Virus record (IMG/VR): IMGVR_UViG_3300023172_002872
Location: 1 to 25,478 of that record
Reading direction: 5' to 3' (one strand)
Length of the DNA: 25,478 nt
Origin: a virus
Shown here: positions 9,207 to 25,478 of the stretch, in pieces
Position numbering within the stretch: position 1 is the stretch's first letter
Layout: every line of letters starts with the position of its first letter
Notes under the pieces: model-generated
The model's input: the letters and a program-made list of their open reading frames with translations, nothing else
The model's database searches: none
Told to the model about the DNA's origin: nothing
Program-made: the position numbers and the translations under genes

Positions 9207-9218
9207 TTGTTATTTTTT

Positions 9219-9247: not shown

Positions 9248-9248
9248 A

Positions 9249-10805: not shown

Positions 10806-10825
10806 TGATTATCTTTTTACTTATT

Positions 10826-10880
10826 GCGTAAAATTTACAAAAAATTATTTTAGCGAAGCGTAAATTAGCGTAAGATTTAT
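10826..10880. repeat. three GCGTAA repeats in a divergent intergenic region
   Basis: The motif GCGTAA followed by A/T-rich bases occurs at 10826, 10858 and 10868, with a related GCGAAG at 10853. They lie between two divergent radical SAM genes, where an operator or two promoters must fit. The repeats are short and may be chance. Confidence 0.4.
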
Positions 10881-10901
10881 TTGACCTTTATGTTTTTACC
10901 A

Positions 10902-10908
10902 TTAAATA
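10902..10908 (+). promoter_or_regulatory. TTAAATA box before the radical SAM gene
   Basis: TTAAATA ends 11 nt before the ATG at 10920, with TTGACC at 10881-10886 about 16 nt upstream in a -35-like position. If this is the promoter, the transcript starts just before the ATG. It also argues against the in-frame TTG at 10881 as the start codon. Confidence 0.4.
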
Positions 10909-10919
10909 TATCTATCAAG

Positions 10920-12206: not shown

Positions 12207-12220
12207 AAATATTATATAAT
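12192..12220 (+). promoter_or_regulatory. sigma70-like promoter of the cupin gene, leaderless layout
   Basis: TTGTTT (12192-12197), a 17-nt spacer, and TATAAT (12215-12220). The expected start of transcription, 6-7 nt downstream, falls on the ATG at 12226. The -35 lies within the end of the preceding gene. Confidence 0.55.
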
Positions 12221-12225
12221 GAATT

Positions 12226-12771
12226 ATGAAAACAATTAAAACATTTAAAAGAATAGTAACAGGAATCAACGAACAAGGCAAATCAACAGTAATGTCAAAC
12301 GATATTGCCAAGGGAGTTTTAGATTTTGGCGACGACCGACCGTTCCATACGCACACGTATCTCTGGAAAACCAAAAACGAAAAACAAGATTTCACAGGAT
12401 TCAACGATCCAATTGATTCTAATTTCAAAACCTTTCCGGCACCGGGAGGTACAACTTTTTTGGTTGTACAGTTTGATCCACAAGACGACGAAGTACTGAA
12501 AAAATTAAATCCCCAGGACGGTTTTAAAAAAATGAATGCCTTAGAAAATCTTAAGCCTAGCAAGAGACATCCTTATATGCACACAACACCAACTGTTGAT
12601 TATGGATATGTTATTTCTGGAAAAATAAAACTACTGCTTGACGAAGGAGACGAAGAGGTTGAATTATCACAGGGAGATGTTTTAGTACAGCGAGGAGCTC
12701 GCCATGCCTGGTATAATCCTTTTAATGAACCTTGTGTGATAGCATTCACACTAGTCGACGGACAACAATAA
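12226..12771 (+). CDS. cupin-domain protein
   Basis: The 181-residue protein has a C-terminal cupin barrel at about 115-178. Motif 1 is degenerate: His115 and His119, then Tyr-Gly-Tyr-Val-Ile-Ser-Gly. Motif 2 is clear, Gly-Asp-x-Leu-Val-Gln-Arg-Gly-x2-His-x3-Asn with His160. The N-terminal ~80 residues include His41-Thr-His43 and may form a second, partial barrel. Cupins of this form include metal-dependent oxygenases, isomerases and binding proteins; I cannot choose. It follows the radical SAM gene by 19 nt with a separate promoter and converges on the TauD-type oxygenase. Confidence 0.83.
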   Translation: MKTIKTFKRIVTGINEQGKSTVMSNDIAKGVLDFGDDRPFHTHTYLWKTKNEKQDFTGFNDPIDSNFKTFPAPGGTTFLVVQFDPQDDEVLKKLNPQDGFKKMNALENLKPSKRHPYMHTTPTVDYGYVISGKIKLLLDEGDEEVELSQGDVLVQRGARHAWYNPFNEPCVIAFTLVDGQQ

Positions 12772-12776
12772 TTTTT

Positions 12777-13601
12777 TTAGGCAAGTGTGTGTCTGGCATT
12801 CAAACGCCAGAGTAATCTTTCGTGTTTTGGGTCTAGGCTATCTACTGTTCCTCTAGCCGAATGTAGTAAAGAAATATTATCCCACATTAAAAAATCTTTT
12901 TCTTCCCAATGGTGCTCATAAACATAATTTTCGTTTATTGCGTGTTCTTGTAACGTCTTCATGAGTGCATCACTTTTGTCTTGTTCCATTCCCAATATTT
13001 TTCTAATATGACCAAACACAGAAAATAAACAATTTTCACCTGTCGTCCAGTGAGGCATAACCAGTGGATGATATACAGGTTCCCCTCCACCAATTCCTTT
13101 TAGTTCATCCGGGTCGGGTACAGCCGCTAGATGATAGTCAGTAGCGTGTTCGTGTACACAAACTTTTCCTGTAATTTTCTTTTTTAAATCTAGGGGAAGA
13201 TCTCTATACACAGCCGATTGATCAGAGAACACAGTTGTTCCACCTTCCTGAGCCACTTTTAATGAATATAAAAAACTATGCGTAGGAGGATTTTGTAAAA
13301 ATGATTGGTCGATATGCCAAATCTCTGGACTCAATTGTCCTTTGGTTTTGTCATTTGTGAGCACATATATTTCTGGATGACTCTGCAATGCATTGGTTCT
13401 CCATTTTGCATGTCTGACTGGCTCACCTACTTTTTTTATAATCGATACCAGTTGATCTGCTGAAAGATCAATGTTCTTAAAAATAAGCAATTTATACTGA
13501 TCTTGCAGTTGAACTATCTCGTCAAAGTTCTCGATCATCTCATCATATGATGTTTTAATTTTTACACCGTAACTACTGTTTTCTAAATTTTCAATTTCCA
13601 T
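12777..13601 (-). CDS. TauD/TfdA-family 2-oxoglutarate and Fe(II)-dependent dioxygenase
   Basis: The 274-residue length is typical for the family. The iron site is complete: His96-x-Asp98 in Trp-His-Ile-Asp-Gln-Ser-Phe, and the distal His247 in Leu-Leu-His-Ser-Ala-Arg-Gly. An Arg (262 or 266) follows at the 2-oxoglutarate-binding position. It would hydroxylate a small molecule using 2-oxoglutarate and O2 in the cytoplasm; family members act on taurine, carnitine precursors and herbicides. It converges on the cupin gene 5 nt away. A TTAAATA box lies only 5 nt before the start. Substrate unknown. Confidence 0.9.
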   Translation of the reverse strand: MEIENLENSSYGVKIKTSYDEMIENFDEIVQLQDQYKLLIFKNIDLSADQLVSIIKKVGEPVRHAKWRTNALQSHPEIYVLTNDKTKGQLSPEIWHIDQSFLQNPPTHSFLYSLKVAQEGGTTVFSDQSAVYRDLPLDLKKKITGKVCVHEHATDYHLAAVPDPDELKGIGGGEPVYHPLVMPHWTTGENCLFSVFGHIRKILGMEQDKSDALMKTLQEHAINENYVYEHHWEEKDFLMWDNISLLHSARGTVDSLDPKHERLLWRLNARHTLA

Positions 13602-13606
13602 ACTCT

Positions 13607-13613
13607 TATTTAA
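13607..13613 (-). promoter_or_regulatory. TTAAATA box 5 nt before the dioxygenase start
   Basis: Read on the minus strand, TTAAATA is followed by AGAGT and then the ATG. A start of transcription 6-7 nt after a -10 box would lie at the ATG itself. No -35 is evident. Confidence 0.4.
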
Positions 13614-13652
13614 TTACAAAAATAAACGGCTATTAATTTTGTGACTAATTAA

Positions 13653-14657
13653 ATGTGCATCATGATAAATCAACGTTTATTTGACTGGTATAACATAGAT
13701 ACAAGCAAAGATCTTAAGTTTAACTCTTACTGTACTAGACCTTTTGATACTGTTTTAATTGATAAAAACGGTTCCTGTTATCTTTGCGAATGCCAGGCCT
13801 GGTTACCACAGAGTGTTGGTAATATACAAGTACAACCTTTGGAAAAAATTATTACTTCAAACACAGCAAAAATACTTCAGGAATCTATTGCGGACGGATC
13901 GTACCGTTACTGCAATAATCATCAATGCACATTTTTGTTAAAAGACAGAGACCTAGGATGGCCGGAAACAGTACCAAATGTGAAAATAAAAAATATTAGA
14001 TTGGCCATCGATGAAAGTTGTAATTTATTTTGTCCAAGTTGTAGGAACAAACAGATATTTTACAAATCCGGACCCGAACTCAAAAAAAGAATGTCTATCG
14101 CAGATAAGATTATAGATTATTTGAAAAAACAACAGACTAATACAAATGTACACATCGGTAGTGACGGCGATCCTTTCGCAAGTTTGGTCTATAGATATTT
14201 TATAAAAAACACCAAACACCTTGAGCATCTGAAATTTAGCCTTCAAACTAACGGACTGCTTGTTAAAAAAATGTATATAAAAAACAAAGAGATGTTTGAT
14301 AGATTGACTGTGCTAGGCATCAGCATCGATGGTGCCACTAAAAATACATACGAAAAACTTCGACTGGGAGGCAACTTTGAAAAAATTCTAGAGAACCTCG
14401 AATTTATCAAGCACATCAAAGACAAATTTATTTTTAATTTGCACATGGTCGTACAGAAAGACAATTGGCATGAAATGCCTTTGATGTTAGATATCGCTCA
14501 TAGATATGATGTTGATAAAGTTTATTTTAACAAAATACAAAACTGGAACACCGCTCTAAATTTTTCTGAACAACAATTTACAGACATGGAAGAGTTTAAA
14601 AAAATATATTCTAAAATAAAGAAAGATACCAAAAGCCGTTTGTGGGCATTGACCTAA
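13653..14657 (+). CDS. second twitch/SPASM-type radical SAM protein
   Basis: The 334-residue protein (or 331 if it starts at ATG 13662) begins with a SPASM-like half: Cys27-Thr-Arg-Pro, then 'dkNGsCyLC' with Cys42, Cys45 and Cys47, a Val-Gly-Asn-Ile segment, and Cys87 and Cys92. The radical SAM cluster motif Cys123-x3-Cys127-x2-Cys130 follows (Cys-Asn-Leu-Phe-Cys-Pro-Ser-Cys), then a barrel with Ser-Ile-Asp-Gly. The order, auxiliary cysteine domain before the core, is the same as in the other twitch-type gene, but sequence and length differ, so the two probably act on different substrates. It ends 2 nt before the convergent SGNH gene. Confidence 0.87.
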   Translation: MCIMINQRLFDWYNIDTSKDLKFNSYCTRPFDTVLIDKNGSCYLCECQAWLPQSVGNIQVQPLEKIITSNTAKILQESIADGSYRYCNNHQCTFLLKDRDLGWPETVPNVKIKNIRLAIDESCNLFCPSCRNKQIFYKSGPELKKRMSIADKIIDYLKKQQTNTNVHIGSDGDPFASLVYRYFIKNTKHLEHLKFSLQTNGLLVKKMYIKNKEMFDRLTVLGISIDGATKNTYEKLRLGGNFEKILENLEFIKHIKDKFIFNLHMVVQKDNWHEMPLMLDIAHRYDVDKVYFNKIQNWNTALNFSEQQFTDMEEFKKIYSKIKKDTKSRLWALT

Positions 14658-14659
14658 AA

Positions 14660-15373
14660 TTATTTTATTTTACTACTAAAACGATTATAGATATTTTCAG
14701 CAAATGTACGGTGATGTTTTGTGCCATAGTGTATTCCATCCCTGGCCAGATCTGGTTTTTCTTCAATGGTTCTCCTAGCATCGGCACCATGGTGATTGTC
14801 CCACACAGGCCAACAAGATCTCAATGAAGTGTCGTCGAGGACATATCTAGTATCGGGTATCATGTAGATATCTTGAGCAAAACAATGAAACACAACAGCA
14901 TTATTATATTCGGCAAATTTCTCAACCTGAAACACACACTTTAAAAAATTGTTTTGATCTGTGACACTGGTTTCATATTTCAGGGAATTGTCATCGCTTG
15001 TTATAGAAATTGGATATATGTCTAAACGTTCTCTTCTGCTCCATGCTGGCCAACACACTATAATAATTTTAGGAAACAACACTTTTTCAGATGCATACAA
15101 CATCCTTACACACATATCGGGAGATGCTCCGGGTTGTGCCAGATTCCAAAATCTTAACCTTTTATTATTCAATAATTTTTCTAACTGTGAGATCCAAATT
15201 TCGGGTTGTTCCAGACCTTCGCCGAAAGTATGAGAACATCCTAGAACTGCTATATTTTTTCCTCCGTCCGGCAGAGGAGAAAATTCTGGACATCTAAAAC
15301 CGTGTGAATTTGTTTTGTAATCTTTGTGATTAAATGTCGGAAATTGATTATCTGAATAATGTCCGTATTTCAT
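14660..15373 (-). CDS. SGNH/GDSL-type hydrolase
   Basis: The 237-residue protein has the block I nucleophile Ser47 in Gly-Cys-Ser-His-Thr-Phe-Gly-Glu-Gly, a block II glycine in Leu-Ala-Gln-Pro-Gly-Ala-Ser (G82), and the block V pair Asp212 and His215 in Asp-Gly-Ile-His-Tyr. The usual block III Gly-x-Asn is replaced by Cys-Trp-Pro-Ala-Trp. Members are esterases and deacetylases acting on acyl groups, often of polysaccharides. There is no signal peptide, so it acts in the cytoplasm or in the virion. It is downstream of three tRNA genes on the same strand, with a TTAAATA box 5 nt before the ATG. Substrate inferred only broadly. Confidence 0.82.
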   Translation of the reverse strand: MKYGHYSDNQFPTFNHKDYKTNSHGFRCPEFSPLPDGGKNIAVLGCSHTFGEGLEQPEIWISQLEKLLNNKRLRFWNLAQPGASPDMCVRMLYASEKVLFPKIIIVCWPAWSRRERLDIYPISITSDDNSLKYETSVTDQNNFLKCVFQVEKFAEYNNAVVFHCFAQDIYMIPDTRYVLDDTSLRSCWPVWDNHHGADARRTIEEKPDLARDGIHYGTKHHRTFAENIYNRFSSKIK

Positions 15374-15378
15374 GTTTG

Positions 15379-15385
15379 TATTTAA
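15379..15385 (-). promoter_or_regulatory. TTAAATA box 5 nt before the SGNH gene
   Basis: On the minus strand TTAAATA, then CAAAC, then ATG. It lies just after the CCA end of tRNA-Glu, so the gene may be read from this box or from RNA left after tRNA processing. Confidence 0.38.
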
Positions 15386-15388
15386 TGT

Positions 15389-15463
15389 TGGCGGTCCCTA
15401 GGGGAATCGAACCCCTCTTTCGAGGATGAAAACCACGTGTCCTAACCGATAGACGAAGGGACC
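15389..15463 (-). tRNA. tRNA-Glu (anticodon TTC)
   Basis: A 75-nt cloverleaf: acceptor GGTCCCT pairs with AGGGACC, a discriminator G and the CCA end are encoded, and the T-arm TTCGATT loop has a perfect 5-bp stem. The anticodon loop TTTTCAT reads Glu; its stem carries one T-T mismatch. It is the last of three tandem tRNAs. Confidence 0.93.
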
Positions 15464-15466
15464 TTT

Positions 15467-15542
15467 TGGTGGAGGTAGAGGGATTCGAACCCACGACCCC
15501 TTGAATGCAAATCAAGTGCTCTCCCAACTGAGCTATACCCCC
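15467..15542 (-). tRNA. tRNA-Ala (anticodon TGC)
   Basis: A 76-nt cloverleaf with acceptor GGGGGTA/TACCTCC (one G-T pair), a classic D-arm (AGCTCAGTTGG), anticodon loop TTTGCAT in a perfect CTTGA/TCAAG stem, and encoded ACCA. The T-stem has one T-T mismatch. It is 3 nt from tRNA-Glu. Confidence 0.94.
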
Positions 15543-15551
15543 ACATCGATG

Positions 15552-15627
15552 TGGTGCCCCAAGTCCGATTCGAACAGACGACCTACTGATTACAAATCAG
15601 TTGCTCTACCAACTGAGCTATTGGGGC
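15552..15627 (-). tRNA. tRNA-Thr (anticodon TGT)
   Basis: A 76-nt cloverleaf with acceptor GCCCCAA/TTGGGGC, anticodon loop TTTGTAA in a perfect ACTGA/TCAGT stem, T-arm GTCTG/CGGAC and encoded ACCA. Its first 10 nt overlap the end of the FTR1 gene, whose stop codon lies within the tRNA. Confidence 0.94.
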
Positions 15628-16223
15628 CAAATACCGTATTCAATTATTTCTGAAATACCTGTATATAGAAAGTATACAGCAAGTATGCTAAAAATCCAAC
15701 GACTAATTTTAAAAATATTTTTGATGGGTAATTTTGTTATTTGATTATACATAATTTTTGATACAGTCACCAATATTACCAAACCAGCCAAAATACCCAA
15801 ATATACCATTTGAATGTCCTGACTATCGATGATTATGCCTGTAAGGAATATAACTACTTCGACTCCTTCTCGAAACATTATACCAAAAACAGCAAGTCCT
15901 AATAACAAAGAGTTTCCAAAAGGCAAGGCTTTAACGTGCTGGCTGGCACTATGGCAGAACCATGCTACCCAGGCTAGTACAACACCTGTAATGACCCCTA
16001 TAAACCCTTCAAATCGCTCTGTATTTGCGTGATTGCCTAATAACTGGGCAGTTGTAGTGCCCAAAGCAATAGTGGCCAAAATAGACCCTAAAACTGCCCA
16101 TATAATGACTTTTATATGTTTGGGATTGTTGTTGGCCGCTGTGATGGCCAACACCGCTATCAGCCATGCTTCAAGTCCTTCTCTGGCTATTACAAACGTG
16201 GTTGCTAGTAGAGTGGTAATCAT
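15618..16223 (-). CDS. FTR1-family iron permease, short form
   Basis: An integral inner-membrane protein of 201 residues with about six hydrophobic segments (roughly 1-25, 38-58, 72-90, 107-131, 137-155, 172-195). Both diagnostic motifs are present: Arg-Glu-Gly-Leu-Glu at 14-18 in the first segment and Arg-Glu-Gly-Val-Glu at 118-122 in the fourth. These carboxylates carry iron in FTR1/EfeU permeases. Family members are usually about 270 residues, so the C-terminal helices are reduced. No EfeO- or EfeB-like partner is in the window. It is read in the same direction as the three tRNAs, and its last codons lie inside tRNA-Thr. A sigma70-like promoter lies 48 nt upstream. Confidence 0.87.
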   Translation of the reverse strand: MITTLLATTFVIAREGLEAWLIAVLAITAANNNPKHIKVIIWAVLGSILATIALGTTTAQLLGNHANTERFEGFIGVITGVVLAWVAWFCHSASQHVKALPFGNSLLLGLAVFGIMFREGVEVVIFLTGIIIDSQDIQMVYLGILAGLVILVTVSKIMYNQITKLPIKNIFKISRWIFSILAVYFLYTGISEIIEYGIWPQ

Positions 16224-16270
16224 AATTTTATTAGTTGCGAATAGTTATTATTTGCATTTACTTATAGCAC

Positions 16271-16299
16271 ACTATACACTATCAAACAAATTCGGTCAA
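16271..16299 (-). promoter_or_regulatory. sigma70-like promoter of the FTR1-tRNA unit
   Basis: On the minus strand TTGACC (16294-16299), a 17-nt spacer, and TATAGT (16271-16276). Transcription would begin near 16264 and run through FTR1 and the three tRNAs. Confidence 0.62.
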
Positions 16300-16307
16300 C
16301 GATCAAC

Positions 16308-16336
16308 TTGACTTTTTTTGTTTTGGGTTGTAATAT
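16308..16336 (+). promoter_or_regulatory. sigma70-like promoter facing the 66-residue gene
   Basis: TTGACT (16308-16313), a 17-nt spacer, and TAATAT (16331-16336). It is back to back with the FTR1 promoter, the -35 boxes being 8 nt apart, so one regulator bound there could act on both. Confidence 0.58.
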
Positions 16337-16363
16337 AAACATAGGTGATATGTGCTATTTGCA

Positions 16364-16371
16364 TATAAATA
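16364..16371 (+). promoter_or_regulatory. T4-type late promoter box TATAAATA
   Basis: A perfect match to the classical T4 late box, downstream of the sigma70-like promoter and 81 nt before the ATG. Two promoters imply expression both early and late. Confidence 0.6.
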
Positions 16372-16378
16372 CTGAACC

Positions 16379-16424
16379 ATCCACATGGACATAAAGTGGC
16401 TGATCCACATCAGTTAAAAGTGGC
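16379..16424 (+). repeat. two direct repeats in the leader of the 66-residue gene
   Basis: The unit ATCCACAT-N7-AAGTGGC occurs twice (16379-16400 and 16403-16424), 24 nt apart. In each unit CCAC can pair with GTGG, so the RNA could form two small tandem hairpins before the ribosome site. This looks like a binding site for a protein or RNA. Confidence 0.6.
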
Positions 16425-16452
16425 CAACTTAAAGAAAAAAAGGAGGTTACTT

Positions 16453-16653
16453 ATGTACACCAAAGATAGACACACTTATATGATGTCCTCATATTACAAA
16501 AAGAAAGACATCGAGCACAAAGAGAACGCTATGAAAAGAGCAGTTCAATCCGTTGACACATACGGAAACGGAACAACTGGCTACATGATCAAGCATGGAT
16601 CAAATGCTGGCAAAATATTAAAACACATCAAAGTAGATCCGTCCAACATCTAA
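16453..16653 (+). CDS. small basic protein (66 aa), probably abundant
   Basis: AGGAGG (16441-16446) stands 6 nt before ATG 16453, which decides the start over an in-frame ATG at 16396. The protein is rich in Lys, His, Tyr and Met, with a Tyr-Tyr-Lys-Lys-Lys segment (14-18) and a glycine-containing middle (Tyr-Gly-Asn-Gly-Thr-Thr-Gly-Tyr). No signal peptide or membrane segment. It is a single-gene unit with two promoters, a repeat-bearing leader, the strongest ribosome site in the window and its own terminator, all signs of high output. A DNA- or RNA-binding or host-takeover role fits the charge, but this is inference; I do not recognise a family. Confidence 0.8.
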   Translation: MYTKDRHTYMMSSYYKKKDIEHKENAMKRAVQSVDTYGNGTTGYMIKHGSNAGKILKHIKVDPSNI

Positions 16654-16673
16654 ATTATTTGTGTATGGTAAAA

Positions 16674-16701
16674 AACCGGTGAGCAGATTTGTTCACCGGT
16701 T
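16674..16701 (+). terminator. terminator-like hairpin after the 66-residue gene
   Basis: A 9-bp perfect stem, AACCGGTGA with TCACCGGTT, around a 10-nt loop. The following DNA (GAAATTGTATTG) has only a weak T run. It separates this unit from the lipoprotein promoter 9 nt later. Confidence 0.65.
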
Positions 16702-16710
16702 GAAATTGTA

Positions 16711-16741
16711 TTGACATGTCGATATCAATCTATTATAAATA
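16711..16741 (+). promoter_or_regulatory. consensus promoter of the small lipoprotein gene
   Basis: Perfect TTGACA (16711-16716), a 17-nt spacer, then TATAAA (16734-16739), which is also part of a T4 late box TATAAATA (16734-16741). Transcription would start near 16746, only about 6 nt before the ATG at 16752. Confidence 0.68.
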
Positions 16742-16751
16742 TGGCATAATT

Positions 16752-17000
16752 ATGAAATTTTTAAAAATTCAAAAAATATTGATATTATTTTTATTCGCCA
16801 TTCTTTTGACAAGTTGTGCGTCTAAAAACAAAGACGTAGCAAGTAACAAAGAGCCGAACATATATGACGGATCTATTGGATTGGTCCTAGGTTGTATGTT
16901 CAACCCGGCTGAATGTAACAAATTCAAGCAACAGGTTGAACAAGACGAGATAACCAAAGATTTTGAAGAAGTTGACAAAGCAACAAGCTCATCAAAATAA
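16752..17000 (+). CDS. small lipoprotein (82 aa)
   Basis: I chose ATG 16752: a signal sequence (Lys-Phe-Leu-Lys-Ile-Gln-Lys, then a Leu/Ile/Phe core) leads to a lipobox Leu-Thr-Ser-Cys, so the mature protein is lipidated at that cysteine. The mature ~60 residues are polar, with two further cysteines (Gly-Cys-Met and Glu-Cys-Asn) and an acidic helical tail. An upstream in-frame ATG at 16716 lies in the promoter and is unlikely. It could be an outer spanin or a surface-exclusion lipoprotein. Function not established. Confidence 0.75.
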   Translation: MKFLKIQKILILFLFAILLTSCASKNKDVASNKEPNIYDGSIGLVLGCMFNPAECNKFKQQVEQDEITKDFEEVDKATSSSK

Positions 17001-17005
17001 TAGTA

Positions 17006-17206
17006 TTACTTCTTTTTTTCTATCAATTTACAATCTTCGGTGTTGGCCGGCAAACCAGAATTTTTGTCATATATCCATACATATGAATACGTGACCTTAT
17101 CTGTAGACGCCAAACATTTTTTACCAAAAGAAACTTTTGGTGAAGTCGGTATAGCCGTGCATGACACGAGCATTACCGCGGTTGCTATCATTATCAAATG
17201 TTTCAT
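17006..17206 (-). CDS. small lipoprotein (66 aa)
   Basis: A signal sequence ends in a lipobox Leu-Val-Ser-Cys, followed by a ~50-residue mature part with two cysteines that may pair (in Lys-Lys-Cys-Leu and Glu-Asp-Cys-Lys) and a Tyr-Ser-Tyr-Val-Trp strand. AGGAAA lies 8 nt upstream of the ATG. It converges on the other lipoprotein 5 nt away and diverges from the next gene with 14 nt between start codons. Role unknown; lysis or exclusion are possibilities. Confidence 0.7.
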   Translation of the reverse strand: MKHLIMIATAVMLVSCTAIPTSPKVSFGKKCLASTDKVTYSYVWIYDKNSGLPANTEDCKLIEKKK

Positions 17207-17220
17207 GTAAATACTTTCCT

Positions 17221-17496
17221 ATGCGTTATTTTTTTGTTATTATTATAACTGCTATTATATATATGTCGATCGGACATACCGATCATAAAAAATTTGAATT
17301 AGAATTTGAGGAGTTTCTGGCACGAGAAGAGCTCATGACTTTTCAAATGAACTTGTGGGAGTTATTACAACAACTGGAATACACACACGGAGAACAACGT
17401 TCAGTTGTGAAGGATGAAATAACTGTGATGCGAGAAAATATTAATAAACAAATTATCAAGATATTAGAATTAGATTTTAAACATCATAAAGATTAA
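17221..17496 (+). CDS. membrane-anchored helical protein (91 aa)
   Basis: I chose ATG 17221, directly before a hydrophobic N-terminal segment of ~16 residues (Tyr-Phe-Phe-Val-Ile-Ile-Ile-Thr-Ala). The remaining ~70 residues are a charged, probably coiled-coil helix. A GTAAATA box ends 7 nt before the ATG; a longer start at 17161 would put charged residues before the anchor. Topology (anchor in, helix in the periplasm) and neighbouring lipoproteins recall an inner spanin with outer partners, but I see no proof. Its end overlaps the convergent gene by 4 nt. Confidence 0.65.
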   Translation: MRYFFVIIITAIIYMSIGHTDHKKFELEFEEFLAREELMTFQMNLWELLQQLEYTHGEQRSVVKDEITVMRENINKQIIKILELDFKHHKD

Positions 17497-18134
17497 AATG
17501 TTTCTTCAAATATCTTTTTCCATGGTTCTACATTCCAATCAACAAAGATACTGACAATAATTCTTTCTTCTTTGCTGTCATTAATGACCGAATGTATATA
17601 CTCTCCGGAATTTATAATTTTTGGTTTAAGATCAGAAAAGTCTACTAATCCGTTTTTGTAAATTTTAAAATAACAACCACGTGGCCAATTCAACGGAAAA
17701 TATATTTTGTGTGCAACAAAATTTGAATCTTTGTGTGGATATATGAATCCATCCGGACTCATTTTACTCATAGTTATAAGTAGAACACCGCCTAATAATT
17801 TTATGTTTTTTAAAAAATTATTCCATTCAGGATATGATTCTGTATTGAAACACACCTCTTCTTTTTCGTCATGCTTCTGCTGTACAATAGGAATACCTAT
17901 GATATTACTTTCTGATTTAGATTTGTATAATAGAATGCGATCAATTTTTTCTAAACTCTTTGTTTTTCCAGGCCCGATCCAATCAAAACTAGATGCTTCT
18001 TCATAAAGTTTAGATAGATCATAATCAAACGGGAAGTTTAAATTTTTGAAACTATTCGATGGTCCAAAATTGTTATCATAACGGAATAAATCCCGAATGA
18101 TCTTTGGATATTTGTCTGAAAGATGAATTGTCAT
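17493..18134 (-). CDS. 2OG/Fe(II) oxygenase of the Asp/Asn beta-hydroxylase type
   Basis: The 213-residue protein has a double-stranded beta-helix core with a possible iron site: His134-x-Asp136 in Tyr-Pro-His-Lys-Asp-Ser, then His181 in Tyr-Ile-His-Ser-Val-Ile-Asn and Arg191 in Glu-Arg-Ile-Ile-Val-Ser-Ile at the 2-oxoglutarate position. The Phe-Pro-Leu segment between resembles aspartyl/asparaginyl hydroxylases. It would hydroxylate a protein side chain or small molecule. It is third in an operon after clpP and overlaps the preceding gene by 59 nt, an unusually long overlap. It differs from the TauD-type enzyme, so two oxygenase classes are present. Confidence 0.75.
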   Translation of the reverse strand: MTIHLSDKYPKIIRDLFRYDNNFGPSNSFKNLNFPFDYDLSKLYEEASSFDWIGPGKTKSLEKIDRILLYKSKSESNIIGIPIVQQKHDEKEEVCFNTESYPEWNNFLKNIKLLGGVLLITMSKMSPDGFIYPHKDSNFVAHKIYFPLNWPRGCYFKIYKNGLVDFSDLKPKIINSGEYIHSVINDSKEERIIVSIFVDWNVEPWKKIFEETF

Positions 18135-18462
18135 TGTTTATCCAATCTATATACCATTTCCATATGGGTGTATAAAAATAAAATTTTACGAAAATGGAAT
18201 CTGCATTTCCTCTATTTTTATTACTAGTGAATCCATGATGAATAAAATAACGAGTGTCTATACCATCAAGTTCCAAACGATTTACTACAACGTTACCTTT
18301 TATAGTTATTGAATTAAATTTATGTTTGATTGCATGAACGTCAAATTTATTAACCTTAACATCTGATGTTATGTCTTCGAATAGTTTTTTTTCATTAAAC
18401 AATATACTGTATTTAGAATTTTGTTGTGCATCTATTTCTAGAACAACTGGAATACTATCCAT
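18076..18462 (-). CDS. unidentified beta-rich protein (128 aa)
   Basis: A soluble protein with alternating strands (Val-Val-Leu-Glu-Ile-Asp, Ser-Ile-Thr-Ile-Lys-Gly, Val-Val-Val-Asn-Arg-Leu-Glu-Leu) and an aromatic C-terminal half (Phe-Tyr-Phe-Tyr-Thr-Pro-Ile-Trp-Lys-Trp-Tyr). The first ~70 residues would suit a small beta sandwich such as a carbohydrate-binding module, but this is only a resemblance. It sits 12 nt after clpP and overlaps the oxygenase gene, so the three are probably one transcript. Confidence 0.7.
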   Translation of the reverse strand: MDSIPVVLEIDAQQNSKYSILFNEKKLFEDITSDVKVNKFDVHAIKHKFNSITIKGNVVVNRLELDGIDTRYFIHHGFTSNKNRGNADSIFVKFYFYTPIWKWYIDWINNDNSSFRQISKDHSGFIPL

Positions 18463-18474
18463 AAATCAAAATTT

Positions 18475-19080
18475 TTAAATTGTTTCTGGACTTGGTCTCT
18501 TTGTTACTATTTCGTCGGCAAGTCCGTATTCTACTGATTGTTCGGGTGTCATAAAATTATCTCTTTCCATGTCCGCGGCCAACATTTCATAAGTTTTATT
18601 TTTGGTGTTGTGCTTAACATAGATTTCAGTAAGATACTTTTTCATTCTAGATATTTCATTGATGTGTATCTGTAGATCTGTGACTTGTCCTCTTGCTCCA
18701 CCTAATGGTTGATGTATCATGTGTCTTGCGTGTGGCAGAATAAAACGTTTACCGGCCGTGCCTGCTTGGGCTAACAATGATCCCATGGAACAGGCCTGTC
18801 CTAAAACCACAGTTCTTATATCACATCTGATGTATTGCATGGTATCATAAATTGCCATACCGGCTGTAACTGATCCTCCGGGAGAATTGATATACAGTGT
18901 AATATCTTTGTCTGCTGATTGTGACTCTAGAAATAAAAGTTGTGCTGTTAGCACTGACGCTAGTCTTTCATCAACTACATCGTCCAGCATTATAATTCTA
19001 TCTTTTAAAAGACGAGAAAAAATATCATAACTTCTTTCGCCTTTTGATGTTTGTTCAATAACAATTGGTGTAAGTGGCAT
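18475..19080 (-). CDS. clpP: ClpP-type serine peptidase
   Basis: A full-length ClpP (201 aa) with the complete triad: Ser98 in Gly-Gln-Ala-Cys-Ser-Met-Gly, His123 in Met-Ile-His-Gln-Pro, and Asp174 in Glu-Arg-Asp-Asn-Phe. It lacks the N-terminal propeptide of E. coli ClpP and starts close to the mature end (Ile-Val-Ile-Glu-Gln-Thr-Ser). It would form a barrel that degrades unfolded chains given by a Clp ATPase, none of which is in this window, so it may pair with host ClpX or ClpA or replace host ClpP. Phage ClpP copies can also act in head maturation. It leads the operon and has a near-consensus promoter directly before the ATG. Confidence 0.92.
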
Positions 19081-19089
19081 AATACTCTA

Positions 19090-19118
19090 ATTGTAACATT
19101 TTTTTTCTCACCTGTCAA
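19090..19118 (-). promoter_or_regulatory. near-consensus sigma70 promoter of clpP, almost leaderless
   Basis: TTGACA (19113-19118), a 17-nt spacer, and TACAAT (19090-19095) on the minus strand. The ATG at 19080 is 9 nt beyond the -10, so the leader would be at most a few nucleotides. Confidence 0.68.
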
Positions 19119-19126
19119 CACACAAC

Positions 19127-19133
19127 TTAAATA
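19127..19133 (+). promoter_or_regulatory. TTAAATA box before the BKACE gene
   Basis: TTAAATA ends 9 nt before the ATG at 19143, in a 62-nt gap shared with the clpP promoter. There is no -35 and no Shine-Dalgarno site. Confidence 0.4.
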
Positions 19134-19142
19134 TAACTACTA

Positions 19143-19994
19143 ATGAAAACAATTATAACCTGTGCTGTAACTGGTGGTAAAACTGATCCAAACTCCACAC
19201 CATACTTGCCAATAACACCGGAACAAATTGCACAATCCTCGTTGGATGCCGCGGCGGCGGGTGCTTCCATAGTACACATACACGTTCGAAATCCAGATAA
19301 CGGTAAACCGTCTATGGACAAAGATCTTTACCAAAAAACTGTTGACTTGATAAGAAACAAGAACGAAAATCTTATTATTAATCTCACCACAGGTCCGGGT
19401 GCTGTGTATAAGCCATTAACAAATGATAATTCTGGATTAATGGATGCTCAAACAAGAGTGGAACACATAGATAGTATACGTCCTGATATATGTAGTCTAG
19501 ACTTTAACACCATGATGCAAGATGACGACGGTGTTAGGATAAACTCTATTCCTGTCGTTGCTGAGATGCTTTTGAAAATACAGTCATATGGCACACTTCC
19601 GGAATTTGAAATTTTTGACAGCGGTGATCTCAGAATTGCAAAAAAACTCATTAGTGACGGACTTACGAGCAGACAACCCATATGGCAAATAGTGACGGGA
19701 GTCAAATACGGATGGGAGTCTTCCATCAACACAATTGATTATGCGTTAAAAATTTTACCGGAAAACTCAATTTGGTGTGCTCTGGGAGTAGGCAAGATGT
19801 CTTTGCCTATAGCAGAATATGTTCATCAAAAAGGTGGCCATGTTAGGGTTGGCATGGAAGATAACATCTACCTCGAAAAAAATGTGCTCGCGAAATCAAA
19901 TGCAGAGCTAGTAGAACAATGCGTATCTTCGATAGAAAAAACAAATGGCTCTGTGGCTTCTGTCTCTGAAGCAAGAACAATATTAAAAATTTAG
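19143..19994 (+). CDS. BKACE-family enzyme (DUF849, beta-keto acid cleavage)
   Basis: A full-length TIM-barrel enzyme (283 aa). The N-terminal strand Ile-Ile-Thr-Cys-Ala-Val-Thr-Gly-Gly and the zinc ligands His45 and His47 in His-Ile-His-Val-Arg are present, as is Gly-Met-Glu-Asp-Asn (237-241) with Glu239 as third metal ligand and Arg235 before it. The C-terminal Ser-Asn-Ala-Glu-Leu-Val segment is also typical. The family splits beta-keto acids with acetyl-CoA to give acetoacetate and a CoA ester; the first known member is lysine-fermentation Kce. Substrate is set by pocket residues I cannot read. All key residues are intact, so it should be active. It converges on the TRAP genes. Confidence 0.9.
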   Translation: MKTIITCAVTGGKTDPNSTPYLPITPEQIAQSSLDAAAAGASIVHIHVRNPDNGKPSMDKDLYQKTVDLIRNKNENLIINLTTGPGAVYKPLTNDNSGLMDAQTRVEHIDSIRPDICSLDFNTMMQDDDGVRINSIPVVAEMLLKIQSYGTLPEFEIFDSGDLRIAKKLISDGLTSRQPIWQIVTGVKYGWESSINTIDYALKILPENSIWCALGVGKMSLPIAEYVHQKGGHVRVGMEDNIYLEKNVLAKSNAELVEQCVSSIEKTNGSVASVSEARTILKI

Positions 19995-20000: not shown

Positions 20001-20028
20001 AAAAAGGGCCGCCGAAGCGACCCTTTTT
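20001..20028. terminator. strong bidirectional terminator
   Basis: On the minus strand: an A run, GGGTCGC, the tetraloop TTCG, GCGGCCC, then a T run. The stem is 7 bp plus A-T extensions, with one G-T pair. It has T runs on both strands and serves the converging BKACE and TRAP genes. Confidence 0.88.
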
Positions 20029-20048: not shown

Positions 20049-20537
20049 CTAGGCTTTCTTGATTCTATCAAGTAATCCAGGTGAAAATGTTGGTTCGAAC
20101 TTTTCGTACACCGTTTTAGTCTTTTCCTTGAACTCTGCTGTTTCTTCCGGGGTAAGCTCGTGAACGTTAACACCCTCTGATTTCAATCTAGCCTTGGCTT
20201 CTTCTCCATCAGCGATCGTTGTTTCACGTTCTTTTCTTCCGGCATCAATTGCGGCCGCTTTTAAAACAGCCTTGACTTCTGGAGATAATTTCTCATAGAA
20301 ATCATTACGCATGATCATGGTTGTTAAGAACAAACTGTGTTTCGTATCAATAACCGATTTGGTCACTTCGTTCTGGTCCAAAGGGTAAACTCTAGAGTAA
20401 ACTCCTTCTCCGCCTTCACATTTTCCTTCTTCGATTGCACCTTTTAGATCTTCTATTTCACAAACGTGTCTATCTGTGACACCTAGTGCTTTGAAGGTTT
20501 CTTGGGCAACCGGGTTTCTGTTAGTTCTAAGTTTCAT
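20049..20537 (-). CDS. second (C-terminal) lobe of a split TRAP solute-binding protein
   Basis: The 162 residues match the C-terminal half of DctP-type TRAP solute-binding proteins. It begins Lys-Leu-Arg-Thr-Asn, which is the strand after the hinge and contains the arginine that binds substrate carboxylate in the family (Arg4, or Arg7). A Glu-Lys-Leu-Ser-Pro-Glu-Val helix and the long charged C-terminal helices follow. It has no signal peptide. It is separated from the first lobe by two in-frame stop codons and restarts at ATG at once, with no ribosome site of its own, so stop-start reinitiation is likely. Lobes of equal amount would rejoin into one binding site. Confidence 0.8.
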   Translation of the reverse strand: MKLRTNRNPVAQETFKALGVTDRHVCEIEDLKGAIEEGKCEGGEGVYSRVYPLDQNEVTKSVIDTKHSLFLTTMIMRNDFYEKLSPEVKAVLKAAAIDAGRKERETTIADGEEAKARLKSEGVNVHELTPEETAEFKEKTKTVYEKFEPTFSPGLLDRIKKA

Positions 20538-20540
20538 TTA

Positions 20541-21011
20541 TTACGCAGTTAAGTCACCTAGTTTGCTAACTTTTTTGTTAGAAACTACGTTTCTGAAACC
20601 ACCTGAGTAAGTAAATGCCATACCTCTAACGTTAGATTTTTCAGTGATTTTGTTTAATAATTCTTCACCTACTTCACCTTCTAACACTCTAGTTGCATGA
20701 TCATGATCTGCAAATATGAAAGGCATTTCTAATGCTAACATATCTTGTTCATAATGCTCTGCTAACCATGTAGTGTACATTTGAGACATTTCAATTTTAC
20801 CTTGTTCCATCAAGTCTAATAAGTCGTGTTTAGTAACTAATACACCGTTGTTGTATTTGTCACTGTACTCTCTTAATGTCATGATTTCAACTTCGATTTT
20901 TTCTGCAGTCTGAGCTCTGTTCACGAAATCTTGGAAATCTTTAGCCGCTCTTACGAATAAAGATAAAGGCTCGTGTGCAATAACCCATCTGATTTTAGTT
21001 GTTTTTGTCAT
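20541..21011 (-). CDS. first (N-terminal) lobe of a split TRAP solute-binding protein, no signal peptide
   Basis: The 156 residues match the N-terminal half of DctP: a first strand Ile-Arg-Trp-Val-Ile-Ala-His, a helix Ala-Ala-Lys-Asp-Phe, and the Ala-Leu-Glu-Met-Pro-Phe-Ile-Phe segment. It ends Leu-Gly-Asp-Leu-Thr-Ala, exactly at the usual 'dLkGlkiR' hinge. Family proteins carry a secretion signal; here the ATG stands directly at the mature end, so the product stays in the cytoplasm or is carried in the virion. AGGAAG lies 8 nt upstream, a good ribosome site. No TRAP membrane subunits are in the window. Confidence 0.82.
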   Translation of the reverse strand: MTKTTKIRWVIAHEPLSLFVRAAKDFQDFVNRAQTAEKIEVEIMTLREYSDKYNNGVLVTKHDLLDLMEQGKIEMSQMYTTWLAEHYEQDMLALEMPFIFADHDHATRVLEGEVGEELLNKITEKSNVRGMAFTYSGGFRNVVSNKKVSKLGDLTA

Positions 21012-21027
21012 TGTGTTTCTTCCTTTT

Positions 21028-21092
21028 TATTTAACGTTAAATCAAGGCTGTGTTTACATTCTTGACTTGCTGATATTTACCAATTAAATCAA
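21028..21092 (-). promoter_or_regulatory. duplicated promoter-like element before the split TRAP genes
   Basis: On the minus strand TTGATTTAA followed within 2-3 nt by TTAAATA or GTAAATA occurs twice, at 21074-21092 and 21028-21045. Both contain the TAAATA box seen before other genes in the window. The rest of the 128-nt gap shows nothing else. Confidence 0.42.
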
Positions 21093-21139
21093 TGATAATA
21101 TGTGTTTTCTGGCTAGTTTTAAATAATATACGCATATAA

Positions 21140-22405
21140 CTATCCTTTGTACTCGCTCAGCATTTTATCATAAAAATTATCAACATCATGATTTGGTTGC
21201 CAATATTGATCAAATAAGAGGTCCGGTTGTGTTATTTTTAATGCCGGTTGTTGTCCAGCAATCTTATTTTTATACTTGTAATACTCGGTCATCTTAGAAT
21301 AGTCGAAAATATATTTTTTAACCAAAGATTTGTGTTTGGTCATGTCTGCTGTTGGAATAAGTGACTTTAAATTAGTATAGGACCACTGCTGGAACTTGTC
21401 TGTGTTGAAAAAAGTATTTTTAGAGAAAAATTTTTGTTTTTCAAAAGATATATGTTCTCCGCTGTTATTGTATAAAAACGGTCGTTGGCAACTGAACTCC
21501 CATTTGAAATTGAAATATGTCCACCAATACCAATCTGCTATACTAGTGAGATAATCATTGTGTTTGTTTTCAATAATATTATTCGAGAGTTTTTCACAAA
21601 ACCAATCAACGCAGTTTTTTGAAAACTCCGAGATATGCTTGTCAGAAAGATAGTTTTCTGGCAAACTTATTTTATAAAAATTGGTTTTGTTTTCTAGAAT
21701 TTGTATCAATGGTTTTTTTATTAGATCCATATTTTTTTGCCAGGATTCGTGGTGAACTCCTTGACGTATAGCCATTTTCATTCTGCTTATGCTGGGACCA
21801 AACAAGCAGTCGGCTGGGTCTCCGTGTAATAGAATGTACTGATCTAGAAACTCGTTTGTGACTAAAAAGAAAACAGAACTTCGAATTGCTAGTTTTCTGT
21901 AAATAAATTTCATAAAAAATTCTGGATGTTCAAAAATAGAATCGGTATTACAAATGACCTCTATCATGTCGTGTTCGTTGTTGGGTATGTTTTTCAACAA
22001 CGAAACCAATACTGATGTGGAATCAATTCCACCACTCCACATCACTGCCAGTTTCTTGTTGGAGTTCTTGGCCTCGTTGTACAACTCCGTGGCTCGTGAA
22101 TCATAAATGTCCTCTAATTTATCATCGATGAATTTCAATTCGGGCATGGCATACAGTGGATTGCTGGGTGCGTTCCATGGATTATTAAAAGTACCCGATC
22201 GGGCTCGCCAGTCTGAAATACCTTGCATTAATTTATAAATCTGACCCCAGTACATACTATAAGGATTTTCTGGATACACAGACCTACTCAAAGGAAGATC
22301 ATATCCCATGCTTAAAAAATTTGATACTGTATTAGATTTTGCAAATTTGTCTTTGACAGATTTGGGTAATGGAGAATTTTGGAACTTAACGATCTGTAAT
22401 TTCAT
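21140..22405 (-). CDS. asparagine-synthase-like PP-loop protein, copy 1
   Basis: The 421-residue protein has a PP-loop Ser-Gly-Gly-Ile-Asp-Ser-Thr (124-130) that binds ATP, and a second conserved segment Leu-His-Gly-Asp-Pro-Ala-Asp-Cys-Leu-Phe-Gly-Pro, which aligns with 'GdGgDElFGG' of asparagine synthetase. The glutaminase domain is missing, so ammonia or another amine must be supplied. These enzymes adenylate a carboxylate or similar group and release pyrophosphate. A first ~95 residues and a C-terminal ~130 residues (Phe-Lys-Trp-Glu-Phe-Ser-Cys-Gln-Arg-Pro-Phe) are shared with copies 2 and 3, while the middle differs. It starts 20 nt inside the preceding gene. Substrate unknown. Confidence 0.82.
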   Translation of the reverse strand: MKLQIVKFQNSPLPKSVKDKFAKSNTVSNFLSMGYDLPLSRSVYPENPYSMYWGQIYKLMQGISDWRARSGTFNNPWNAPSNPLYAMPELKFIDDKLEDIYDSRATELYNEAKNSNKKLAVMWSGGIDSTSVLVSLLKNIPNNEHDMIEVICNTDSIFEHPEFFMKFIYRKLAIRSSVFFLVTNEFLDQYILLHGDPADCLFGPSISRMKMAIRQGVHHESWQKNMDLIKKPLIQILENKTNFYKISLPENYLSDKHISEFSKNCVDWFCEKLSNNIIENKHNDYLTSIADWYWWTYFNFKWEFSCQRPFLYNNSGEHISFEKQKFFSKNTFFNTDKFQQWSYTNLKSLIPTADMTKHKSLVKKYIFDYSKMTEYYKYKNKIAGQQPALKITQPDLLFDQYWQPNHDVDNFYDKMLSEYKG

Positions 22406-23234
22406 TTAATTTCTTGCTCAAAAAAAATCTTATATGTTCTATCATGCTGTGCTCTCGGATTAAGTCTTTATATAGATTTGGATTTTTTTGAAAAGAACTC
22501 AAATTGTCAAATCCGTCTTCTAATAAAAAATATCGATAACGCGGACTCGTTGTGTTTTTTGTTTTTGATGTTTTATCTATCATGTCGTTAATAAAGTCTA
22601 GAACACATTCGTTGTTTGAAATGTCTATTTTATTAAAAGAGTCGATTAATGATTTTGTAACATATTTTTGGTATTCGTGTAAATCTGCACTATATCTATC
22701 GTTTAAATTTAGCTCTTGTTCAAATATTTTTTTTAATTCCTCACTATGATCTGGTGTGTCCACTAATAGTTTTAAAAAATTAAAAAATTCTTTTATTCCA
22801 TTATCTTTATCTCTGGTTGAATCTATTTTAAAATTTTTTATTGAATCTAACTGTATTTGAACAATTTCAAAAATTTCTAATATTATTTCTAATACGTCTT
22901 TCAATTTATAGGAAATATCTATGTCAGTTGGTGAAATCATGATACCGGATTCTTTGGCATTATGCAGTGACACTGTTTGCTCTAGACTTTGAATCATGGT
23001 AGTGTTGACACCATATTTTACACAATTGGTATTGTCTATGTTATCTAATATTATATCTCTATACTCAGTGTTATATTTTTTTTGGTAATCTATTGTTTGG
23101 GTTATGTTTAATACCGGATAGAAATATTTTTGCATTATGACAAATTGTACTTGTTTAATAGCAGAAAAATTTGTTGACACCACGACAAATTTATTAGCGG
23201 CCGGGTCTATTAATCCATATAACTCGTTTGACAT
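22386..23234 (-). CDS. unidentified protein inside the PP-loop operon (282 aa)
   Basis: A helical, Asn/Ile/Lys-rich cytoplasmic protein with no signal peptide, membrane segment or known motif. The N-terminal ~70 residues look mixed alpha/beta, the rest mostly helical with acidic and basic stretches (for example Asp-His-Ser-Glu-Glu-Leu-Lys-Lys). It is flanked by paralogous PP-loop genes, overlaps copy 1 by 20 nt and follows copy 2 by 11 nt, so it is co-translated and may be a subunit or an acceptor of the same reaction. I recognise no family. Confidence 0.75.
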   Translation of the reverse strand: MSNELYGLIDPAANKFVVVSTNFSAIKQVQFVIMQKYFYPVLNITQTIDYQKKYNTEYRDIILDNIDNTNCVKYGVNTTMIQSLEQTVSLHNAKESGIMISPTDIDISYKLKDVLEIILEIFEIVQIQLDSIKNFKIDSTRDKDNGIKEFFNFLKLLVDTPDHSEELKKIFEQELNLNDRYSADLHEYQKYVTKSLIDSFNKIDISNNECVLDFINDMIDKTSKTKNTTSPRYRYFLLEDGFDNLSSFQKNPNLYKDLIREHSMIEHIRFFLSKKLNEITDR

Positions 23235-23245
23235 AACGTTAATTA

Positions 23246-24508
23246 TTACCCTTTATAACGATCCAGAAGCATTCTGGAAGTTTTAGAGACCATATGATCG
23301 TCTTCATTCCAGGCGTGTCCTACCCACTCGTCGTCATAATAAAAAGGATTTACCGTGCCGTCACCATTCACATTCACAGTTCTCAAAACATTTACCGGGG
23401 TTTTGGTTCCCACTTTTGTTTTTGTACTGAAGTAAATTTCATTGTGATCGAACTCGTACACATATTTTTTTAAATCTATTTTGTGTTGTGATACATCTTT
23501 AGGTATCAAATTTTTTAAATTGGTGTAGGACCACTGCTGGAACTTGTCTGTGTTGAAGAATGTGTTCTTGGCAAATTGCTCTTGATGTCCGTGTGGTATC
23601 GATTTCTTGTACATGGGCATTCTTTTGCTATATTGCTGTAAAGATCTCATATAAAAGAATGGACGTTGGCAACTGAATTCCCACTTGAAGTTGAAGTATT
23701 GCCACCACCAGAAATCTGCAACAGTTGATACATAATCAGATTGTCCAGCCTGTTGTATTGTTTGATTTATCTTGTCATAGTACCATTGATTGAAATCAAA
23801 ACCTAATTGATATGTTGACAGCAAAGGGTGTTTGATGTTTATTTTATGTATGCTGTGTAATTTTAAATGGATGCCCGATGACTCATAATTTTTAACAGTT
23901 TGATTATTGCTCGACGGCATATTGGGACCAAACAAGCAGTCGGCTGGGTCTCCGTGTAATAGAATGTACTGATCTAGGAAATTAACATCTAGTTTTATGT
24001 CTATGTAATTTTTTTGTTTTAACTTGTTACTGATGTGTTTAAAATAAAAATCAACATTCTCATATATCGAGGAAGTTGTCATGATGACCTCTATCATGTC
24101 GTGTTCGTTGTTGGGTATGTTTTTCAACAACGAAACCAATACCGCAGTGGAATCAATTCCACCACTCCACATCACTGCCAGTTTCTTGTTGGAGTTCTTG
24201 GCCTCGTTGTACAACTCCATGGCCCTCTCGTCCAGCAAGTCACTCATTTTGTCATTGATGAATTTCAATTCGGGCATGGCATACAGTGGATTGCTGGGTG
24301 CGTTCCATGGCGTGTTGAACGTGCCTCTGCGAGGACGAGTGTCATGAATTCCTAGCAATATCCTCGGAATAAGAACCCAAGCAACGGCAAAATTGTTTTT
24401 TTTCATTTGATTTAGATATTGTTGGATCTCCCAGTTATCGACCATTCGCGATGATTTAATTTTTTTTACATGATCAACTGGATATTTTTTGCTGTAATAG
24501 TTTTCCAT
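23246..24508 (-). CDS. asparagine-synthase-like PP-loop protein, copy 2
   Basis: The 420 residues share the whole layout of copy 1: an N-terminal Gly-Thr-Phe-Asn-x-Pro-Trp-Asn-Ala-Pro segment, the PP-loop Ser-Gly-Gly-Ile-Asp-Ser-Thr (115-121), the Leu-His-Gly-Asp-Pro-Ala-Asp-Cys-Leu-Phe-Gly-Pro segment and the Asp-Lys-Phe-Gln-Gln-Trp-Ser-Tyr-Thr-Asn-Leu-Lys end. Residues between these blocks differ strongly from copy 1 but resemble copy 3, so copies 2 and 3 are the closer pair. It starts 15 nt after copy 3 ends. The first 50 residues are specific to this copy as far as can be seen. Confidence 0.82.
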   Translation of the reverse strand: MENYYSKKYPVDHVKKIKSSRMVDNWEIQQYLNQMKKNNFAVAWVLIPRILLGIHDTRPRRGTFNTPWNAPSNPLYAMPELKFINDKMSDLLDERAMELYNEAKNSNKKLAVMWSGGIDSTAVLVSLLKNIPNNEHDMIEVIMTTSSIYENVDFYFKHISNKLKQKNYIDIKLDVNFLDQYILLHGDPADCLFGPNMPSSNNQTVKNYESSGIHLKLHSIHKINIKHPLLSTYQLGFDFNQWYYDKINQTIQQAGQSDYVSTVADFWWWQYFNFKWEFSCQRPFFYMRSLQQYSKRMPMYKKSIPHGHQEQFAKNTFFNTDKFQQWSYTNLKNLIPKDVSQHKIDLKKYVYEFDHNEIYFSTKTKVGTKTPVNVLRTVNVNGDGTVNPFYYDDEWVGHAWNEDDHMVSKTSRMLLDRYKG

Positions 24509-24523
24509 ATCTTTAATGTGTTG

Positions 24524-25478
24524 CTAACCCTCGTACCTTTCTATGAGATATCTCATACTTTTATCAACCGTGCTGTTGTCTTCGTTTCCACTATAACCTA
24601 TCCAGTTGTTGTCATAATAAACTGGTCTATCGATATCTATGTGTTGTGTGGGATTTTTGACTCCCACTTTTGGTTTTTCAACAAAATAAATTTCATTGTG
24701 ATCGAACTCGTACACATATCTTTTTACATCTATTTTGTGTTGTGACTGGTCATCGTCAGGAATTAATCTTTTTAAATTGGTGTAGGACCATTGCTGGAAC
24801 TTGTCTGTGTTGAAAAAAGTATTTTTTGCAAACTGTTGTTGATGCTCATATGATATTGGTTTCTTGTACAAGGGCATTCCGTCTTTGTCGCCGGTAGATC
24901 TCATATAAAAGAATGGACGTTGGCAACTGAATTCCCACTTGAAGTTGAAATAGGTCCACCACCAGAAATCTGCAACAGTTGATACATAATCTTGCTGTTC
25001 AATCTCGCCTATGCTTTGACTTATTTTGTCATAGTACCATTGATTGAAATCTACTGCTAGATCGTCTGTCAAATAGTTTTTAATTTTTATTTTGTGTATG
25101 CTATGCGGTTGTTTGTGCAGACCTTTGAGAAAATAATCTTTATACATGGGCATACTGGGACCAAACAAGCAGTCACCCGGATCACCGTGTAGTAAAATGT
25201 ATTTGTCAAGAAAGTATGTGTTCAAACTTATATCAAGATAAAAAGATTGTTTGATCTTTCCATTGATGTGTTTTTTCCAATATTCAACATTCTCATATAT
25301 CGAGGAAGTTGTCATGATGACCTCTATCATGTCGTGTTCGTTGTTGGGTATGTTTTTCAACAACGATGTCAGCACTGCTGTGGAATCAATTCCACCACTC
25401 CACATCACTGCCAGTTTCTTGTTGGAGTTCTTGGCCTCGTTGTACAACTCCATGGCCCTCTCGTCCAGCAAGTCACTC
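24524..25478 (-). CDS. asparagine-synthase-like PP-loop protein, copy 3 (5' end beyond the window)
   Basis: The frame stays open to the window edge, so the ATG at 25471 is probably internal: it aligns to residue ~88 of copy 2. About 318 residues are visible, including the PP-loop, the Gly-Asp-Pro-Gly-Asp-Cys-Leu-Phe-Gly-Pro segment (Ala to Gly relative to the others) and the shared C-terminal region. The last 99 nt at the edge (25380-25478) are identical to copy 2. More genes of this kind may lie upstream beyond the window. Confidence 0.82.
   Translation of the reverse strand, partial: SDLLDERAMELYNEAKNSNKKLAVMWSGGIDSTAVLTSLLKNIPNNEHDMIEVIMTTSSIYENVEYWKKHINGKIKQSFYLDISLNTYFLDKYILLHGDPGDCLFGPSMPMYKDYFLKGLHKQPHSIHKIKIKNYLTDDLAVDFNQWYYDKISQSIGEIEQQDYVSTVADFWWWTYFNFKWEFSCQRPFFYMRSTGDKDGMPLYKKPISYEHQQQFAKNTFFNTDKFQQWSYTNLKRLIPDDDQSQHKIDVKRYVYEFDHNEIYFVEKPKVGVKNPTQHIDIDRPVYYDNNWIGYSGNEDNSTVDKSMRYLIERYEG

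Follow-up and report, generated by a model that had tools for sequence, protein, structure and literature searches.

TRAP-fold binding proteins are normally single secreted chains. The locus described here raises the question of whether a phage keeps such a protein as two leaderless pieces that still work together and, if so, where and for what. The window, meaning the whole 25,478-nt stretch analysed (IMG/VR virus record IMGVR_UViG_3300023172_002872), carries a UvsW-like helicase, a primase, a DnaB-like helicase, and a ClpP-type protease around the locus, which indicates a tailed phage.

Two adjacent genes in place of one

Chain A (20541..21011, minus strand, 156 aa) corresponds to the N-terminal part of a leaderless TRAP/DctP solute-binding protein, and chain B (20049..20537, minus strand, 162 aa) to the remainder of the same protein. 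They are separated only by TAA TAA ATG (20535..20543, minus strand), two in-frame stops followed by the start of B, so that the lengths, shared frame, and junction given in an earlier note on this DNA are exact. Against the Pfam DctP family (PF03480; cut-off 23.4 bits), A matches profile positions 13–134 (E 5e-17, 62.5 bits) and B positions 138–284 (E 2.5e-25, 89.8 bits), and the read-through frame of both gives a single DctP match (E 6.6e-49) with two TAA codons within it. A one-piece sister gene (L020) classifies as NCBIfam TRAP_S1.

An AAGGA ribosome-binding site (21021..21025, minus strand) precedes A, and an intrinsic terminator with a 12-pair stem and a T tail (20001..20028, minus strand) lies past B. 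We found neither an in-frame start upstream of 21011 nor a leader or signal peptide on A. The earlier note had likewise described a ribosome site and a terminator flanking the pair and a missing signal peptide. B has no Shine-Dalgarno sequence of its own in the window, none lying at a usable distance from its start, and its translation is probably coupled to that of A by termination–reinitiation. The intergenic region before A (21012..21139, minus strand) lacks the leader RNA that precedes the gene in relatives. It does contain a TAAATA box (21079-21074) and a modest hairpin (z -1.5), but taken singly neither of them reaches significance.

In IMG/VR, the phage DctP-like family comprises 475 matching stretches, mostly one-piece and about 310–350 aa long. 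The check that the earlier note had proposed, a search for the same state in related phage contigs, recovered the two-gene A/B arrangement in 26 further viral contigs with 25 metagenome ids, three of the 26 ending within A or B. Relatives of the phage DctP also occur in bacterial bins, many of them Bdellovibrionota (L101-L128), several beside ABC-transporter genes and on contigs that may be cellular or viral.

Predicted fold, pocket, and location

We modelled A and B as a joined read-through chain, not as two free chains, with AF2 and one-piece relatives as the alignment. The model (pLDDT 95.6, pTM 0.91) has the two-domain TRAP fold with two spanning strands and the long spanning helix present, and the PDB entries that match it best (4xfe, 8t9t, and others; TM about 0.8–0.85) are all TRAP binding proteins. 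In IseP (8T9T), domain I consists of residues 1–153 and 243–281 and domain II of residues 154–242 and 282–336, the spanning strands bend near 151–157 and 236–244, and Arg156 and Arg177 hold the acid group of the ligand (PMC11668362).

Residue 1 of B aligns to IseP residue 174, and in the model the junction falls in the loop that follows the long spanning strand 128–144. The break was first thought to fall exactly at the hinge; it lies within domain II, some 20 residues beyond the hinge strand. Domain I contributes its first segment to chain A and its second segment to chain B, while domain II gives about 17 residues to A and all the remainder to B; the first spanning strand belongs to A and the spanning helix to B. 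A reading of the two chains as two lobes fails accordingly, as each chain holds parts of both domains, and a cut within domain II means that the chains would interlock rather than form one lobe each.

The equivalent of IseP Arg156 is R140 of A, and that of Arg177 is R4 of B. Both residues are invariant in the split clade, as is the family-specific R49 of B, and R140 is replaced by Met in one one-piece clade. IseP Asn217 aligns to G45 of B; the Asn of the classical site is not kept and the invariant R49 follows a few residues on, so the alignment suggests that the ligand chemistry probably differs from that of classical TRAP proteins. With the pocket arginines on different chains, neither chain alone should bind. 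From the interlock of the chains and their joint conservation, we infer that A and B assemble into one TRAP solute-binding fold with the predicted pocket between them.

All phage members examined, split and one-piece alike, begin at the first strand and have no leader peptide. Because the one-piece relatives are leaderless as well, leaderlessness predates the split. The TctC-type binding proteins that adjoin dctP in many of these phages do have leaders and serve as an internal control. Neither DctM nor DctQ was found in any of 18 records, including genomes of 317–357 kb, although these records may be incomplete and a transporter may be host-encoded; DctP was found in 17 of 17 records of the same set without the window. 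The features of a TRAP transporter component, namely a signal peptide with periplasmic location and a cognate DctQ and DctM, are thus absent from what was searched, which makes the host cytoplasm the most likely site of action.

We consider it likely that the pair is a two-chain cytoplasmic TRAP-type binding protein. Its chains would form a heterodimer with one TRAP fold and a ligand pocket between them, the arginines R140 and R4 being divided across the two, and in the cytoplasm of the host it would bind or carry a small anionic metabolite.

Gene neighbours and a leader RNA

Directly upstream of A and in the same direction lies a gene for a PP-loop protein (21140..22405, minus strand) with an SGGIDS motif and an asparagine-synthetase-like character. 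The same gene run continues on the minus strand with a protein of cluster c22 (22386..23234), which is found beside split dctP in related contigs, and with a second (23246..24508) and a third PP-loop protein (24524..25477), the latter running off the window end. The three tandem PP-loop genes of 21140-25477 belong to one family, with an unrelated gene between them, and have no Pfam family match.

Among 80 viral loci, a PP-loop gene (SGGxDS, two families) is located at most two genes from dctP in 63, of which 62 are on the same strand (Fisher p 5e-28, a value that overstates independence since the loci are related and were chosen by similarity). The PP-loop partners have no Pfam match. PDB profiles gave weak matches to GMP synthase, LarE, and asparagine synthetase, and a medium-quality protein model gave AsnS/LarE-like matches with E > 0.01, which limits their identity to "PP-loop ATPase". 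A partnership of the binding protein with these neighbouring asparagine-synthetase-like enzymes, and hence a link to PP-loop chemistry, is a guess that we put forward tentatively.

Elsewhere in the window, positions 3744-4343 encode a short protein of 199 aa (phrog_11778) that is DNA-polymerase-like and seems to be one piece of a split polymerase. Positions 8232-19994 carry an unusually rich metabolic gene set: a porin, three radical-SAM proteins, a cupin, TauD-type and Asp-hydroxylase-type dioxygenases, an FTR1-type permease, and a beta-keto acid cleavage enzyme. In other contigs, a permuted tmRNA (RF04321) lies directly downstream of the phage dctP (L036:3994-4250, L048:3958-4162, and L057:3958-4543).

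Most one-piece relatives near the split clade are preceded by a conserved structured element of about 127 nt (examples of the leader RNA are L029:2852-2983, L006:2840-2972, and L048:2861-2985, with dozens of further places). The element also precedes split dctP in L005, L006, L008-L011, L013, L014, L016, L018, L019, and L027. A covariance model gave 33 matches among 90 loci and found the leader RNA in 11 of 14 records of 100–357 kb, once or twice per phage genome and adjoining these genes. Across 31 distinct leader sequences, 97.7% of pair cells are paired, 132 cells are changed on both sides (37.6 in shuffles), and the covariation score is 0.586 (0.222 shuffled; ≤ 0.113 for slid partners), while an alignment built from a pattern scan made without regard to dctP scored 0.622 against 0.196. 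Because the alignments were fitted to the model, with which they have sequences in common, the counts are biased in favor of the structure. No match was obtained at the leader among 4227 Rfam models in gathering or E-value mode.

The gene that follows the leader in the 54 pattern matches is dctP in 29, TctC-type in 7, and of another kind in 14, the remaining 4 being cut by the contig end or not found. Three of the 14 other genes were scanned: one is NMT1-like (below the cut-off), one porin-like (weak), and one, judged by its start, of the PP-loop type. Most of the remaining genes open with an apparent signal leader. A DctP-specific riboswitch was rejected on this ground, as the unbiased scan also finds the RNA ahead of genes of the TctC type, of NMT1-like and porin-like genes, and of one gene of the PP-loop type. 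Judged by the genes that it precedes, the leader RNA serves binding-protein-type genes, not dctP alone. It may be a more novel part of the system than the protein. Taken together, the leaderless chains and a structured RNA before the gene in many relatives point to a controlled, probably cytoplasmic binding protein. In the window itself, a filters-off search returned nothing beyond noise, and the leader RNA is also absent from L003, L004, L045, L012, L021, L015, and L024.

A T4-late-type TAAATA box immediately precedes the leader in 45 of 46 cases and lies upstream of it in all 54 pattern matches, and only there, ahead of the relatives' leader RNA, does such a box stand out clearly. A late promoter directly before A in the window was considered and rejected, TAAATA-like boxes being no commoner before split genes than in shuffles. 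The late-type boxes of the relatives fit a late gene and do not imply a virion protein. Together with the lack of transport partners, they would suit a late-expressed split protein that forms a decoration or internal component of the virion and uses the binding-protein fold structurally. We regard such a role as unlikely: the neighbours are PP-loop enzymes and exported binding proteins, with no head or tail genes among them, the leader RNA is common to exported binding proteins and a porin-like gene, and the pocket arginines are conserved.

Some phages produce sponge proteins, and by analogy the pair could be a cytoplasmic sponge that sequesters a host signal molecule as a means of counter-defense. 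A leaderless binder without a transporter, present in tandem copies in several genomes, would fit this idea. However, biosynthetic-looking genes adjoin it and no defense-related neighbours were recognized (an anti-defense library was outside the search), and we consider a sponge improbable.

A cytoplasmic two-chain binding protein thus remains our preferred reading. It could belong to a wider phage module for metabolite handling, in which leaderless DctP-like proteins, one clade of them obligately two-chain with a shared pocket, would stand beside PP-loop enzymes. A new class of leader RNA in late transcripts would sense metabolites and control these proteins jointly with the exported ones. 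This extension is possible, if doubtful.

Origin of the split and comparison with known systems

The split contigs show five kinds of junction. The window lineage has TAATAA ATG in frame; others have an overlap of 17–23 nt with B in the +1 frame, a 4-nt ATGA overlap with B in the +2 frame, a gap of 18–19 nt, or a gap of 79–82 nt with a terminator-like hairpin between A and B (L004:3477-3560, L045:3477-3559, and L225:143-223). In these last three contigs, the hairpin suggests that the chains would be separately transcribed. Second B genes occur in L004, L045, and L010, so B may also act alone, and L012 has two A–B pairs in tandem. The two B genes of L010 (3467-4442) come from different branches of the split clade, the second grouping with the ATGA lineage, which suggests exchange between phages.

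That A and B are made as one chain by readthrough or frameshifting, with the split only apparent, would be conceivable for the window lineage, where the halves are in frame with two stops alone between them. The double stop itself argues against this, and elsewhere B lies in either of the other frames, 18–82 nt away, or behind a terminator-like hairpin. No single recoding event could bridge junctions so varied, which refutes this explanation for the clade, and we give it very little credence.

A gene pair of this kind has been deposited independently in BFVD, where its two products carry separate annotations: A0A6J7WI33 (159 aa, 89% to A) and A0A6J7WKL0 (162 aa, 74% to B). With the 26 further contigs, this bears out the claim of two intact polypeptides and no assembly error. 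No other fission was seen in the family beside 261 full-length ORFs. Among the isolated phages of INPHARED, there was no relative of A or B, and one-piece queries returned only ordinary bacterial DctP (18–26% identity over most of the length) in records resembling host DNA. A literature search found no paper that describes a DctP protein in phages or a split of this kind.

In a maximum-likelihood tree of 64 sequences, the 20 split genes form one clade (support 100/98), recovered in all 200 bootstrap trees, and the successive branches next to it are one-piece phage genes; a tree of B alone agrees. The program did not infer the root, and polarity is taken from the nesting of the split clade. Since this clade is nested among one-piece genes, and cellular DctP is in one piece, the tree indicates a single fission event in the phage DctP family, with four junction changes placed after it. 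Uninterrupted genes in related phages had been named in advance as evidence against a genuine two-part protein; sister phages do have them, but they form separate clades, which makes the split derived and fixed and not a lesion.

We further compared selection on the halves by Nei–Gojobori dN/dS, using pairs with dS 0.1–2. The median was 0.087 for split A (71 pairs) and 0.122 for split B (57 pairs), against 0.114 and 0.251 for the A and B parts of one-piece relatives; the pairs are non-independent and many dS values saturated. By this measure both halves are under purifying selection and clearly constrained, neither being relaxed, and the medians do not exceed those of the one-piece relatives. 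The split is real, old, and selected, and the idea of a conserved two-part binding protein without a signal peptide, neither half decaying, holds up. Nothing was found in favor of a pseudogene or an assembly error, which is hardly credible given 27 contigs (window included) from many metagenomes, an independent deposit, and strong purifying selection.

The fission site suggests how the split arose. One-piece sisters read ACT GGT GAA AAA CTA CGT, and the split genes of L024 and L027 read ACT G GTG AAG ATC AGA, with a TAA a few codons later in the old frame. A net loss of two bases would create an early stop together with a GTG start that lies 17 nt before the end of A, and the AAAAGG ribosome site for this new start would already have been present in the Leu-Lys-Gly codons; we infer this route from the aligned sites. 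On this view, a single small indel, in the loop that follows the first spanning strand, would have divided the one-piece leaderless DctP-type protein of a T4-like phage lineage between two genes coupled in translation. The window's in-frame double stop would then have arisen later.

A fission that has lasted through wide divergence and several junctions, with a divided pocket, is a rare case of a ligand-binding protein split in nature, and a split biosensor could readily be developed from it. A phage family that keeps binding proteins without leader or transporter raises the question of their intracellular use. The leader RNA offers a direct handle, as identifying its ligand or partner would reveal the metabolite.

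The nearest well-described relatives are the TRAP DctP solute-binding proteins (PF03480), such as IseP for isethionate (8T9T) and SiaP for sialic acid, which share the fold, the order of elements, the two acid-binding arginine positions, and the PFxFxDhdHa motif. In contrast, the window protein consists of two chains, has no signal peptide and no DctQ or DctM, and is only about 20–25% identical to them, and its "ENP" region is altered, with an invariant Arg. The one-piece leaderless phage DctP-like proteins are direct sisters, 44–66% identical over the full length for most members, with the same leaderless start and similar neighbours; they differ in their uninterrupted gene, and most keep the leader RNA that the window lacks. 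Exported binding proteins of the TctC/Bug type are also carried by phages, and in the genomes studied here the leader RNA precedes TctC-type genes as well as dctP, whereas signal peptides, periplasmic action, and a different fold family set these exported proteins apart. Cyanophage PstS is a further phage-encoded exported binding protein.
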